From the NCBI GenBank assembly GCA_013816245.1, contig JACDEU010000006.1, positions 1 through 64,000 of the forward strand: 64,000 nucleotides of DNA. The letters run 5' to 3'. The stretch is from Actinomycetota bacterium. GTDB lineage: Bacteria > Actinomycetota > Thermoleophilia > Gaiellales > Gaiellaceae. A program made the position numbers and the translations under genes. Below, in pieces: positions 1 through 6,732 of the stretch (positions are counted from its first letter, which is position 1; the number at the start of each line of letters is the position of its first letter). Under the pieces are notes generated by a model. It ran no database searches. It was given only the letters and a program-made list of their open reading frames with translations, and was not told the origin of the DNA.

Positions 1-900
1 ACTAACAACCGTGCCGGCGATGACGCCGCCTTGGTCGCCGCCGCCGCGAAGGGCACCCGGCGGGATTAGGGCAACGTAGAAGCCCTCACTAGTCCTGACC
101 CAGCGGCTCGACGGCAGTTCCTCTCGGTCAATCCACATCGCTCGGACGCGCTGGCCGCGATGAATGGGATCGGTCGGGATGAAGAACTGGCCGTCTTCTT
201 GGCAGTAGGAGCGGCCAGGGCCGCTTGAGGAATAGACCCGTGCGCCAACATCTACTTGCACCTCGAAGCGCGTCCGGACGGCCGTGCCGTCGTGGTAGAA
301 GAGCTGGCCGCGCACGCCGTGCTGGTCGAGACCGAGACCGGCTTGACCCATCTCGTAGCGATCGGTTTCGCTGAGGTCGGTCGGACGCGGGACGACCAGC
401 TCAAGATCGCGTTGCGGACTGAGAAGGCCAGCGATCTTCCAGTTAGCCTTGACCGGCATCTGCTCAACCTCGACGCGCTCGATCCAGTCCTCGGGCCACA
501 TGAAGCTGACCCGTCCCTCGTAGTCCGTTTGCAAGACGAGATCGCCGCCACGGCGGTTGTAGAGAACAACTTCTTTACGGGCGACTGGTCGCCCATCCGG
601 GTACTTCAGAGTCAGCGTTCGCTCAATGCCCGGCGCGTGCGTCTCTAGGCTGCCTTTACGTAGATCTTCGGATGGCAGCTCGACGGTGACAACATCATCG
701 AGCCCGCGTAGAGAGATGTCGCGCTTTACCGCGCGCTTCTCGACCGAGACGACGTTGATCCAGTAGTCGTCCCAGTCGAAAAACAGCCGGCCGTCGTAGT
801 CGGTTTCGCCCTTAATCTCGCGACCACCGTTGCCTTCGATCTTGACTTCCTTCTTGGTCGCTGGGCGGCCATCGGGATAGAGAAGCAGCAGCACTGACAT
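1..900 (-). CDS. Triple-module Ig-like protein, partial (C-terminus off the window)
   Basis: An uninterrupted minus-strand frame starts at ATG 898-900 and runs 300 codons to base 1 without a stop, so the C-terminus is missing. I do not recognise the family. The sequence contains three related modules of about 85-95 residues: residues 4-79, 95-172 and 198-282. Modules 1 and 2 share YPDGRP near their start, then KEV, TDYxGR, FxW, W-I, V-x-VE and VK; module 3 keeps a weaker YHDGTAV and an EDGQFFIP strand. The alternation suggests beta-sandwich (Ig or carboxypeptidase-regulatory-like) folds. There is no signal peptide. It is divergent from the pilin-like gene at 1132, with an 18-bp palindrome between them. 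The open frame is certain; the fold is inferred. Confidence 0.7.
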   Translation of the reverse strand, partial: MSVLLLLYPDGRPATKKEVKIEGNGGREIKGETDYDGRLFFDWDDYWINVVSVEKRAVKRDISLRGLDDVVTVELPSEDLRKGSLETHAPGIERTLTLKYPDGRPVARKEVVLYNRRGGDLVLQTDYEGRVSFMWPEDWIERVEVEQMPVKANWKIAGLLSPQRDLELVVPRPTDLSETDRYEMGQAGLGLDQHGVRGQLFYHDGTAVRTRFEVQVDVGARVYSSSGPGRSYCQEDGQFFIPTDPIHRGQRVRAMWIDREELPSSRWVRTSEGFYVALIPPGALRGGGDQGGVIAGTVVS

Positions 901-939
901 AGGGCGACGGTAAGTCCGGCCGAAGGGGCTTGCTGGCTA

Positions 940-957
940 TTCGCTTACGTAAGCGAA
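940..957. promoter_or_regulatory. 18-bp perfect palindrome, candidate operator
   Basis: TTCGCTTACGTAAGCGAA is a perfect 18-bp palindrome. It lies 40 bases upstream of the minus-strand ATG at 900 and about 175 bases upstream of the pilin-like gene at 1132, so it is placed to serve a divergent promoter region. It has no T-tract and is not terminator-like. A dimeric repressor site is the simplest reading; the bound protein is unknown. Confidence 0.5.
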
Positions 958-1131
958 AAGGCCTTAGACCCTCAAAAACGGCCTTATCGTCGAGAGACGA
1001 TGAGACCACACCACTTCCATAACGGGGCTGTTCTGCGAGGCAATGGGGCAGTCCATGGCCGGACACGGTGCGCCCCCACTTGGTCGCGTCACAACTGGCA
1101 CGCGGGTCTCGCCGAAGCAACAGGAAGGGCG

Positions 1132-1581
1132 ATGGATCTCGGGGTTCAGGCAGGTTCCCGCAAGGGCCGCGCGCTGACGATTGCCGTCATCGGCAGTACC
1201 GTCAGCTTGCGTGCTACGAACGCCGTGGCCGCAGGCAGCGTCAGCGACTGCAAACAAGGCGCGACCGGCGGCATCGTCAGCCTCTTTCAGAACATCGGCA
1301 TTCTGCTGTACGTGATCGGCGGCGTTGTTGCCCTGGTCGCCTTTGCCGGCGCGGCCGTGATGTTCATGTTCTCCGGCGGCAATGAGGGTCGCGCCGAGAA
1401 AGGAATGCGCTGGGCCAAGAACACGGTCTGGGGCCTGGTCTTGCTGGCCGGCGGGTTCTTTATCCGCTCCGTTGTCGTTGATTTCGCCGCCAACTCCCAC
1501 ACCGTCGTCGCCGGCAAGGCGATGGGTGAAGGTGCCGACGCGCTCTTGACCAACTGTGGCCAGATCGGAGGGAGCAAGTGA
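1132..1581 (+). CDS. T4SS pilin-like (VirB2/TrbC-type) membrane protein
   Basis: 149 residues from ATG 1132; an upstream in-frame ATG at 1000 gives an improbable N-terminus. AGGAAGG lies just before the chosen start. The protein has a basic N-terminus, a hydrophobic signal-like stretch (about 12-33) ending in small residues, a long hydrophobic segment (about 44-80) ending FMFSGGNEG, and a second one (about 97-120). Two membrane segments around a short basic loop in a small exported protein are the plan of type IV secretion pilins, and the FSGGNEGRxEKG stretch resembles the actinobacterial T4SS-pilin family. The next gene overlaps it as TGATG, so the two are translationally coupled. A conjugation or surface-pilus role is inferred. 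Confidence 0.6.
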   Translation: MDLGVQAGSRKGRALTIAVIGSTVSLRATNAVAAGSVSDCKQGATGGIVSLFQNIGILLYVIGGVVALVAFAGAAVMFMFSGGNEGRAEKGMRWAKNTVWGLVLLAGGFFIRSVVVDFAANSHTVVAGKAMGEGADALLTNCGQIGGSK

Positions 1582-2045
1582 TGGATGGCCCCGACATCAA
1601 TGGTCTTCTTGGACGCGCGCGTGAAGATGACGCGCTCACACCGGAGCTACCCGAGCGTCGCCGTCGAAGCGTCGGGCCACGCCGTGACATTGGTGTGCCG
1701 TCAATGGCGCCGGCAGAGAGCGCGCCATTGGTTGAGCAGCCGCCGGCGACACCGCAGCTTCACGACTTCGGCTCCATTGAGCTTGACGACCTAGATGTGT
1801 CTCCCCTGAATGCGCCTGACCGCGAGCACGTCCGCGCACGACTGGCCTCCCCGCCTGAGATGGCCCCGCCCGAGCCAGGTCCGGAAGGCGCAAAGTTCTG
1901 GAGCCCCCGCGTTCCGGTGGGGACGATCACGCTGCACGGCGTCGAGATTCCAGTCGAGGCTGACGGACGGCCGATCCTCGAACCGCTCGATGGCCGAGAC
2001 TTCGGGCCAGGATCGCTCTCGCGCCTGGTTGAGCACTTCGAGTAG
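1581..2045 (+). CDS. Unknown protein coupled to the pilin-like gene
   Basis: 154 residues from ATG 1581, overlapping the previous stop as TGATG; GTG 1578 is an alternative. GGAGGGAG upstream serves as the ribosome site inside the previous gene. The N-terminal two thirds is charged, proline-rich and probably disordered, with DIN and LLGRAREDD near the start. A short ordered C-terminal piece (about 110-150) reads like a beta hairpin followed by LVEHFE. There is no membrane segment and no known domain. Tight coupling to a pilin-like gene suggests a cytoplasmic partner in the same apparatus, which is inference. Confidence 0.5.
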   Translation: MDGPDINGLLGRAREDDALTPELPERRRRSVGPRRDIGVPSMAPAESAPLVEQPPATPQLHDFGSIELDDLDVSPLNAPDREHVRARLASPPEMAPPEPGPEGAKFWSPRVPVGTITLHGVEIPVEADGRPILEPLDGRDFGPGSLSRLVEHFE

Positions 2046-2072
2046 CGAGACGACTGCGACGGTGCAGCGGCC

Positions 2073-5578: not shown

Positions 5579-6515
5579 CGCCACTGCCGGCTTTCGGGCC
5601 TATATGGGAGCACGTGGTGCGCGCCGATTTTGGCACGGCTACTACAACATCAAGAGCATTGACCACTACACCGGAGCACCGCTTGCCATAGGCATTTACT
5701 CGGCGTCGAAGAACGAACACACCTGTTATCCAGACCTGTTTGAGCGCCTGCAACGGAACATTGGGGGCAACCCGGAGAGCATCGTTGCTGATAAGGGCTT
5801 CTCGATTGAAGCCGTCTTCGCGCACAACACGAATAACGGCGTGGCCTCGGTTATTCCCTGGCGCAAGGGCAAAGGGCGCTTGCAGCGCCAGGACTTTGAC
5901 ACGCACGACAGGCACGGCATCCCGCGCTGCAAGCACTGCGGCGCTGAGTGTGAGTTCATCCGCTTCCGCGTCGAGAAGGGCGGCCCTCGTCTTTGGTTTC
6001 GTTGTCTGAACCAGGCCAATAGAACGCCGGCGGCTTGCGCGCGTATTCAGTCGATCACTTGTAAGACCGACTACCGGCTGTTGCTGCCGCTTTGGCGCAC
6101 CGAGCCCATCTACCACGAGCTCGCTAGCAGTCACTCGCAGTACGAGCGAGTTCATCGCCATTGGCGCGAGCGTTACTTGGTTGCCGGTGACAATCTGGCG
6201 ACCCGCCCGAAGCGCCGGGGGATTGGCTGCCAGGAGCTACGCGCCCAGGCGGCACTGCTCGCTGAGTGGCTGCGCATCTCTTGGCGTGAAGGTTGGCTTG
6301 GCAGCGCGAGACGCAACAAGAAGTCGCCGGCGCGCTACGCCTCCTTTGGCGTTACTGGCAGCCGGGGCCTTAAGAAGTTCCGCATCAAGGCTGGCCTTCG
6401 TGTTCCGTACGGCCAGCAGGCCGCATTGCTTGGCCTTGGCGAAGCAACGCCGCCCTCTCGTCGCGTTGCTGCACCACCGGGTGACCCGCCCGACTACGGC
6501 GGCGTCCCCTTCTAG
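5529..6515 (+). CDS. DDE transposase, C-terminal half (+1 frame)
   Basis: The C-terminal half of the element's transposase, in the +1 frame relative to 4886-5578. True family sequence begins near HWYRTLDATAG. It contains the second catalytic acid (IVADKGF, D88 of this frame), the RHGIPRCKHCG segment with later cysteines that may form a zinc ribbon, and LLLPLWRT. The ATG at 5529 is unlikely to be a natural start, because the residues before HWYRT are not family-like. Reading R-I-G from the first frame and then skipping one base gives a continuous protein of about 550 residues. Confidence 0.7.
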   Translation: MDDCASVLDQHWYRTLDATAGFRAYMGARGARRFWHGYYNIKSIDHYTGAPLAIGIYSASKNEHTCYPDLFERLQRNIGGNPESIVADKGFSIEAVFAHNTNNGVASVIPWRKGKGRLQRQDFDTHDRHGIPRCKHCGAECEFIRFRVEKGGPRLWFRCLNQANRTPAACARIQSITCKTDYRLLLPLWRTEPIYHELASSHSQYERVHRHWRERYLVAGDNLATRPKRRGIGCQELRAQAALLAEWLRISWREGWLGSARRNKKSPARYASFGVTGSRGLKKFRIKAGLRVPYGQQAALLGLGEATPPSRRVAAPPGDPPDYGGVPF

Positions 6516-6536
6516 TCGTCAGAAGGCGCCGGCGAC

Positions 6537-6605
6537 CTAACCAACATCGAGCGAACAGGCTCCGCGACAAGCGGGGCCTCAGCTTGTTCTCAGAGCGCCG
6601 GTTAG
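6537..6605. other. Nested stem-loop downstream of the transposase
   Basis: Outer arms CTAACC (6537-6542) and GGTTAG (6600-6605) enclose a strong hairpin, GGCTCCGC (6558-6565), loop GACAA, GCGGGGCC (6571-6578), with one G-T pair. It lies 21 bases after the transposase stop. It has no T-tract, so it could be an element end or a factor-dependent terminator. Confidence 0.4.
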
Positions 6606-6641
6606 TCGTTCCTTCGGGGCGAATTTGCCTGCAAAAGCGGT

Positions 6642-6655
6642 TCGAACCGGCGACC
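6642..6655. repeat. 14-bp copy of the tRNA-Ala T-arm (att-like)
   Basis: TCGAACCGGCGACC at 6642-6655 is repeated exactly at 6748-6761, inside the T-arm and variable region of tRNA-Ala(CGC). The copy lies on the element side, 3' of the tRNA. It may be an attachment-site remnant or a leftover tRNA fragment. The identity is short, and conserved T-arm sequence recurs by chance in tRNA genes. Confidence 0.35.
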
Positions 6656-6732
6656 GCCAGCAAGTGTCGTCGAGATGCTCTGCTGCCGGGTGAAATTTCG
6701 GCTAATCCAGAGGTCTTGCCGAAACACTCGAG

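Follow-up and report, generated by a model that had tools for sequence, protein, structure and literature searches.

A repeatedly used insertion site at the 3′ end of tRNA-Ala(CGC) in the Gaiellaceae

Results

The left end of the window abuts the 3′ end of tRNA-Ala(CGC)

The stretch analyzed here, called the window, comprises 64,000 nucleotides from an Actinomycetota bacterium of the family Gaiellaceae (assembly GCA_013816245.1). Its first base is the left end of an 80,774-bp contig (JACDEU010000006.1, our C16) in a 3.16-Mb metagenome-assembled genome (MAG) of 123 contigs that is 92%-complete, with an estimated contamination of 0.51%. Our subject is positions 1-6731, which an earlier note, made from the sequence alone, took to be an accessory element integrated at the 3′ end of a tRNA-Ala(CGC) gene. 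Our analysis makes it highly probable that the 3′ half of this gene is an attachment site (attB) for tyrosine recombinases in the Gaiellaceae lineage and that 1-6731 is the tRNA-proximal part of an additive island of mostly integrase-less units. The features at the boundary are listed in Table 1.

Table 1. Features at the left end of the window and around tRNA-Ala(CGC)
Feature	Position	Strand	Evidence or remark
Inserted tRNA-proximal accessory DNA, far end beyond contig	1..6731	.	Shift in GC content, overall and at third codon positions (GC3); no relatives on 3′ side in ~20 genomes
300-aa protein, weak Ig/macroglobulin-like matches, truncated by contig end	1..900	-	Sub-threshold matches
Type IV secretion system (T4SS) pilin-like (VirB2/TrbC-type) protein	1000..1581	+	PF18895 31.4 bits (cut-off 26.6)
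155-aa protein, no family	1578..2045	+	
394-aa protein, no family, no plasmid relative	2073..3257	-	
153-aa protein, no family	3214..3675	-	
342-aa protein, HNH-associated repeat below cut-off	3720..4748	-	
Probable N-terminal part of split transposase (from position and overlap); no convincing family match of its own	4886..5578	+	Open reading frame (ORF) list
IS1182-like transposase, catalytic part	5529..6515	+	PF01609 32.7 bits, NF033551 42.7 bits
tRNA plus 5′ leader, 112 bp identical to end of contig C123	6731..6842	-	
tRNA-Ala(CGC), insertion target	6732..6805	-	ARAGORN; Rfam RF00005 64.7 bits
41-bp attachment-site (att) core, anticodon loop to tRNA 3′ end, TCGCACCCAGGAGGTCGCCGGTTCGAGCCCGGCTAGCTCCA	6733..6773	-	Exact copies elsewhere and at tRNA end of C123
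TMEM175-like protein, conserved chromosomal neighbor on tRNA 5′ side	6836..7471	+	PF06736; adjoins tRNA in genomes G004, G005, G009, G017

As the earlier note had described, the left block abuts the 3′ side of tRNA-Ala(CGC), a gene found by both ARAGORN and Rfam, and differs in composition from the rest of the window: mean GC3 is 0.713 for the left genes (n=7) versus 0.823 for those to the right (n=55; Mann-Whitney p=6.7e-7), and the overall GC content of 1-6731, 0.617, lies under the minimum of 0.643 for 6.7-kb stretches to the right. The block contains no core genes, again in agreement with the note. Two of the note's gene assignments, the T4SS pilin-like protein and the transposase, are confirmed by family matches above cut-off and by IS1182-like matches, respectively; the reading of the transposase is divided between two frames that overlap. 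Two others fell short: the best match of the proposed Ig-module protein (MG4, 21.9 bits) lies under its cut-off of 24.7, and that of the proposed homing-endonuclease or HNH-repeat protein (14.1 bits, E=0.06) under its cut-off of 26. Searches of the window proteins against PHROGs and PADLOC returned nothing useful. Apart from one 43-bp stretch, neither the DNA nor the proteins of 1-6731 have relatives in the loci we fetched, and the rest of the assembly holds neither a significant copy of the first 300 bases of the window nor a contig end that matches them (best 36 bp, E=0.003). There is no tyrosine integrase gene in 1-6731, although the part of the insert beyond the contig end may hold one.

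The tRNA 3′ half recurs as displaced cores in the same genome

The 41-bp core is found in six further exact copies outside tRNA genes (C31:21001, C31:26106, C113:11120, C113:20501, C69:5092 and C91:11693; C, G and L numbers are our contig, genome and locus handles), where none would be expected by chance. With the C123 junction to different DNA described below, they provide the second copy of the tRNA 3′ end that the earlier note had proposed looking for. Contigs C31 and C113 each hold two of them. An upstream arm of ~107-140 bp is common to five of the six (80-93% identity), with TACC-type motifs conserved ahead of the core in the arm-bearing copies, and C31:21001 and C69:5092 also have 257 bp downstream in common at 98% identity. 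Inside the block itself, a second copy of the T-arm 14-mer of the tRNA, GGTCGCCGGTTCGA, lies at 6642-6655 (minus strand), 77 bp past the tRNA 3′ end; with 0.01 occurrences expected in the whole window, it is perhaps a decayed core.

A transposase adjoins the tRNA in the window, and insertion sequence (IS) elements adjoin other cores (C31:26581-27818), as might be seen if the variable side had arisen by homologous recombination, transposition or rearrangement involving IS1182 or other IS elements rather than by site-specific integration. We consider such an origin very unlikely, since it fails to explain why the tRNA 3′ half recurs in exact copies that have arms in common, and since no convincing pair of IS terminal repeats encloses the transposase in the sequence reaching to the tRNA.

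The end of contig C123 matches the tRNA and its leader (Table 1), and the 3′ side beyond differs completely from that of C16. Because C123 and C16 share the tRNA and leader but not the 3′ DNA, the assembled population contains two junctions of one tRNA, each with a different insert; the alternative is a second copy of the tRNA, as in the related genome G010, which has a second full tRNA-Ala(CGC) at 69756. Another explanation for both the C123 junction and the dispersed cores is chimerism, with contigs of related Gaiellaceae binned together. The genome is indeed a MAG in many contigs, and several relatives carry the identical core, so that core identity is no proof of a common strain. However, the estimated contamination is low, C31 and C113 each have two cores within one contig, and the same multi-copy pattern is seen in relatives and in Conexibacter isolates. 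We give chimerism only a small chance, and even if it were true, the conclusion that this site is a hotspot would hold across genomes.

Among relatives, the 3′ side is hypervariable and the 5′ side is shared

In a relatives search that included the window's own genome, core copies were found in 19 of 41 genomes, G010 holding six; the tRNA-Ala(CGC) gene itself is widespread among the genomes searched. We oriented the loci from ~20 related genomes on the tRNA and compared the proteins encoded within 9 kb on each side. The share common to genomes was 74 of 136 proteins on the 5′ side and fell to 4 of 71 on the 3′ side (Fisher p=2e-13). A common gene order left of tRNA-Ala, which the earlier note had said would count against its proposal, is thus absent from the relatives. 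Given this side-specific sharing and the displaced cores, the note's placement of 1-6731 as an insert at the 3′ end of tRNA-Ala(CGC) is well supported. As expected if contigs break just past the tRNA 3′ end because the 3′ side differs between strains, the contig was shorter on the tRNA's 3′ than on its 5′ side in 11 of 15 Gaiellaceae genomes (Wilcoxon p=0.018), and several Gaiellaceae contigs end within 60 bp past the tRNA 3′ end.

The sequences beside 52 cores form few families, and three arm families cluster across genomes. In one of these, a direct repeat, GGTCAAGTTTTGGTCAAG, occurs on both sides of the core; such repeats are what would be expected of the arm sites of a tyrosine integrase, and this is probably what they are. 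In G010, 15.6 kb separate the tRNA (C14:32359-32433) from a displaced core with an arm (C14:48031). This unit (C14 32434-48071) and C31 21042-26105 in the window's own genome have putative att sites at both ends, with no integrase found, and could be cis-mobilizable elements (CIMEs), in which integrase and transfer genes have been lost. At the window's tRNA-Ala(CGC) itself, several inserts seem to have accreted. Elsewhere the cargo is ordinary, consisting of adenylate-cyclase/STAND/LuxR-type regulators, NmrA-like reductases, and KaiC-like and catabolic genes. A cyclase-hydrolase-type gene of ~450-470 aa lies within ~200 bp of the core in three genomes (G006 C43:986, G007 C194 and G020 C101; loci L074, L078 and L062) and appears to be recurrent cargo.

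One arm-plus-core unit (G010 C23:328368; L046:13368-13942) received a tmRNA* call from ARAGORN, which would make these units permuted transfer-messenger RNA (tmRNA) genes. There is next to no chance of this: one genome has five copies, and these agree with tRNA-Ala at every base, even in the anticodon. The absence of any Rfam tmRNA match from the eight loci holding such units rules the idea out. The ARAGORN call is thus false, which is worth knowing for annotators.

Integrases and conjugation genes

A full example of an island at this tRNA is found in Conexibacter arvalis DSM 23288 (C10:111437-120605). On its contig C10, a tyrosine integrase gene (111530-112762, 410 aa) starts 94 bp past tRNA-Ala(CGC), and a displaced exact core lies 9.1 kb past the tRNA, at 120565: the textbook layout, for the same tRNA and in the same class. 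C1 of this genome has further displaced cores at 24735, 43401 and 50968, of which the third is degenerate; the intervals between them lack an integrase. One of these integrase-less units, between displaced cores (G041 C1:46671-50011, L092), contains genes that, read by eye, resemble type I restriction-modification. The profile with which we searched for integrases was checked against known integrases and recovers those of these genomes. A strict arm motif had no match near the free integrases of the window's genome, but the same motif misses known arms too.

The earlier note had proposed looking beyond base 1 for an integrase, a relaxase and conjugation ATPases, which implied one integrative and conjugative element (ICE) whose T4SS would lie there too. 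The location at a tRNA 3′ end agrees with this, as does the T4SS pilin-like gene, which is, however, the only conjugation-like gene that we saw. TraG-D_C, the C-terminal family of the TraG/VirD4 coupling protein, was absent genome-wide from the 92%-complete assembly in a search that was not exhaustive, being positive in just 6 of 14 control genomes, and neither a relaxase nor a VirB4 ATPase was among the general family matches of the window proteins, no separate search having been aimed at either. The pilin-like protein and the neighboring 394-aa protein have no relatives in 72,556 plasmids, the pilin-like protein and the transposase have none in viral contigs, and the cargo found at this tRNA in relatives is ordinary, with no conjugation genes that we noticed. 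With the far end not linked and no integrase near the cores in the Gaiellaceae loci read, a single complete or conjugative element is not supported, and we regard an ICE as improbable. The core itself is likewise missing from plasmid and phage collections; among viral contigs it was found in one, with two whole tRNA genes in seemingly host-type sequence.

Other tRNA genes as probable sites

We also searched the window's genome for the 3′ halves of 12 other tRNAs, most of which are single copy. tRNA-Thr(GGT), or a tRNA closely related to it, has displaced 3′ halves at C8:111, C37:3715, C113:5024, C11:427, C96:12288 and C96:41586 (loci L109, L110, L021, L113, L114 and L115). The arm sequence ATGGAGCCCTTTATGGAGCC is found beside displaced tRNA-Thr copies; most of the displaced halves have arms with ATGGAGCC-type repeats, and an arm of this type also lies just past the tRNA-Thr gene on C2. 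For tRNA-Val(CAC), whose intact gene is at 54046-54117 of the window, displaced 3′ halves are located at C99:87, C107:1, C113:8439 and C113:11668 (loci L107, L108 and L021); three of them have an upstream arm in common, and C99 and C107 overlap at a contig end. Within 15.5 kb, C113:5024-20541 (loci L021 and L022) holds five 3′-half scars of three tRNAs without intact copies, a mosaic island. Since displaced halves of several tRNAs are present, the phenomenon is genome-wide, with at least three heavily used sites, tRNA-Ala(CGC) among them.

The same genome also contains a 27-kb island (C111:14137-41282; loci L025 and L112) that again has the textbook layout: directly beside tRNA-Val(TAC) at 14137-14210, a broken integrase gene starts at 14242, and a displaced fragment of 43 bp lies at the far end (41240-41282).

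Discussion

A model for repeated insertion at the tRNA

In the mechanism that we propose, an incoming circular element would carry the same 41-bp core between two arms. This core would recombine with the tRNA 3′ half in the anticodon loop, so that an intact tRNA is restored at one end and the old 3′ half ends up at the other. Displaced ends would keep the core and serve as further targets, so that units would accumulate, and repeated use of the site would yield a hypervariable, additive island in which most units lack their own integrase. The recombinase would be of the tyrosine type, either acting in trans or encoded by genes that the units have since lost, and the insert in the window would presumably have used the 41-bp core like the others. 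The position of the crossover, and the chemistry and timing of integration, are likewise what we infer from this arrangement.

Several observations weigh against this model. The far junction of the window insert is not in contig C16, so no displaced core is linked to that insert, and the window sequence next to the tRNA has no match among the arm families. The displaced cores sit on other contigs of a MAG, where binning errors or sister strains may contribute. The profile search revealed no integrase near any Ala core in the Gaiellaceae loci read, and no true empty site was found when we matched the genes beyond tRNAs and beyond displaced cores, a comparison that yielded only the recurrent cyclase-hydrolase cargo gene. 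Finally, tRNA-Ala(CGC) is not unique, since tRNA-Thr(GGT) and tRNA-Val(CAC) also have several displaced copies, with arms of their own.

A more far-reaching scheme would be an integron-like system of the Thermoleophilia anchored at several tRNAs. Its cassettes would form families, lack integrases and each have a tRNA-3′-half core and a pair of arm sites; a small set of common integrases would mobilize them in trans, any copy of the core could receive them in stacks, and strains would exchange them. We think this unlikely. The stacks of integrase-less units with arms at several tRNAs are the more unusual side of our results, and for now amount to no more than a pattern seen in draft assemblies.

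Comparison with known systems

Additive islands at tRNAs with repeated tRNA ends have been described in Alteromonas (PMC4119200), in the actinobacterial order Ca. Actinomarinales (PMC7771536) and in Methylopumilus, whose fGI-2 has tRNA-Lys ends (PMC10872708). As in these flexible genomic islands, where cassettes are added in tandem at a conserved tRNA target with direct repeats of the tRNA 3′ end at the cassette ends, and where content differs between strains while position is constant, our locus has an intact tRNA at a conserved position, one-sided variation in content, and tRNA 3′-end repeats, although the repeats are not linked to the window insert. Unlike the published cases, those reported here are in Gaiellales and Conexibacter (Thermoleophilia), have identifiable arm families beside the core, and involve several tRNAs, with scars mixed on one contig (C113); the core is 41 bp, versus the 20-nt repeat of Methylopumilus.

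Tandem accretion of CIMEs, integrative and mobilizable elements (IMEs) and ICEs at existing att sites has been reviewed (PMC5704250). Our integrase-less units bounded by att sites and stacked at a tRNA 3′ end resemble accreted CIMEs, but we found no active ICE in the window's genome, the displaced cores are far more numerous than in a simple tandem, and an origin from decayed ICEs is not part of our evidence. Among its 3919 islands, the Islander collection, which requires an integrase in each unit, counts 125 tandems with at least two members and 4 with at least three (PMC4383910). Its layout (an intact tRNA at one end, a displaced 3′ fragment at the other, with an anticodon-centered class of crossover) is fully present in C. 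arvalis C10, whereas the window insert and the Gaiellaceae units have no integrase in view; for the window insert, cut off at base 1 by the end of C16, the displaced fragments seen lie on contigs other than its own. Tycheposons, as described in PMC10872708, are also cargo-carrying elements at tRNA genes; we compared them by description alone, and the tyrosine recombinase of such an element was not found in our insert, which is incomplete.

Genome hotspots of this kind are well known, and the group that harbors this one has been little studied. An insertion site that is conserved and in heavy use can now be assigned to common, largely uncultured soil actinobacteria, for which we found no earlier report of such a hotspot in the literature searched, and it explains why assemblies from this group tend to break at tRNA-Ala(CGC). 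The integrase-less units with recognizable arm sites offer a concrete test of movement in trans, and cultured C. arvalis, which has the same island with an integrase, offers a laboratory model.

Other observations near the tRNA

On the 5′ side of the tRNA, the window encodes a RuBisCO-like protein (7390-8571, minus strand; PF00016, 85 bits, NCBIfam cut-offs not reached) that is common to G005 and G009. An ORF at 6584-6823 (plus strand; SRARTGDLLGAIQALSQLSYSP) is the antisense of the tRNA and is spurious, a typical mis-annotation.

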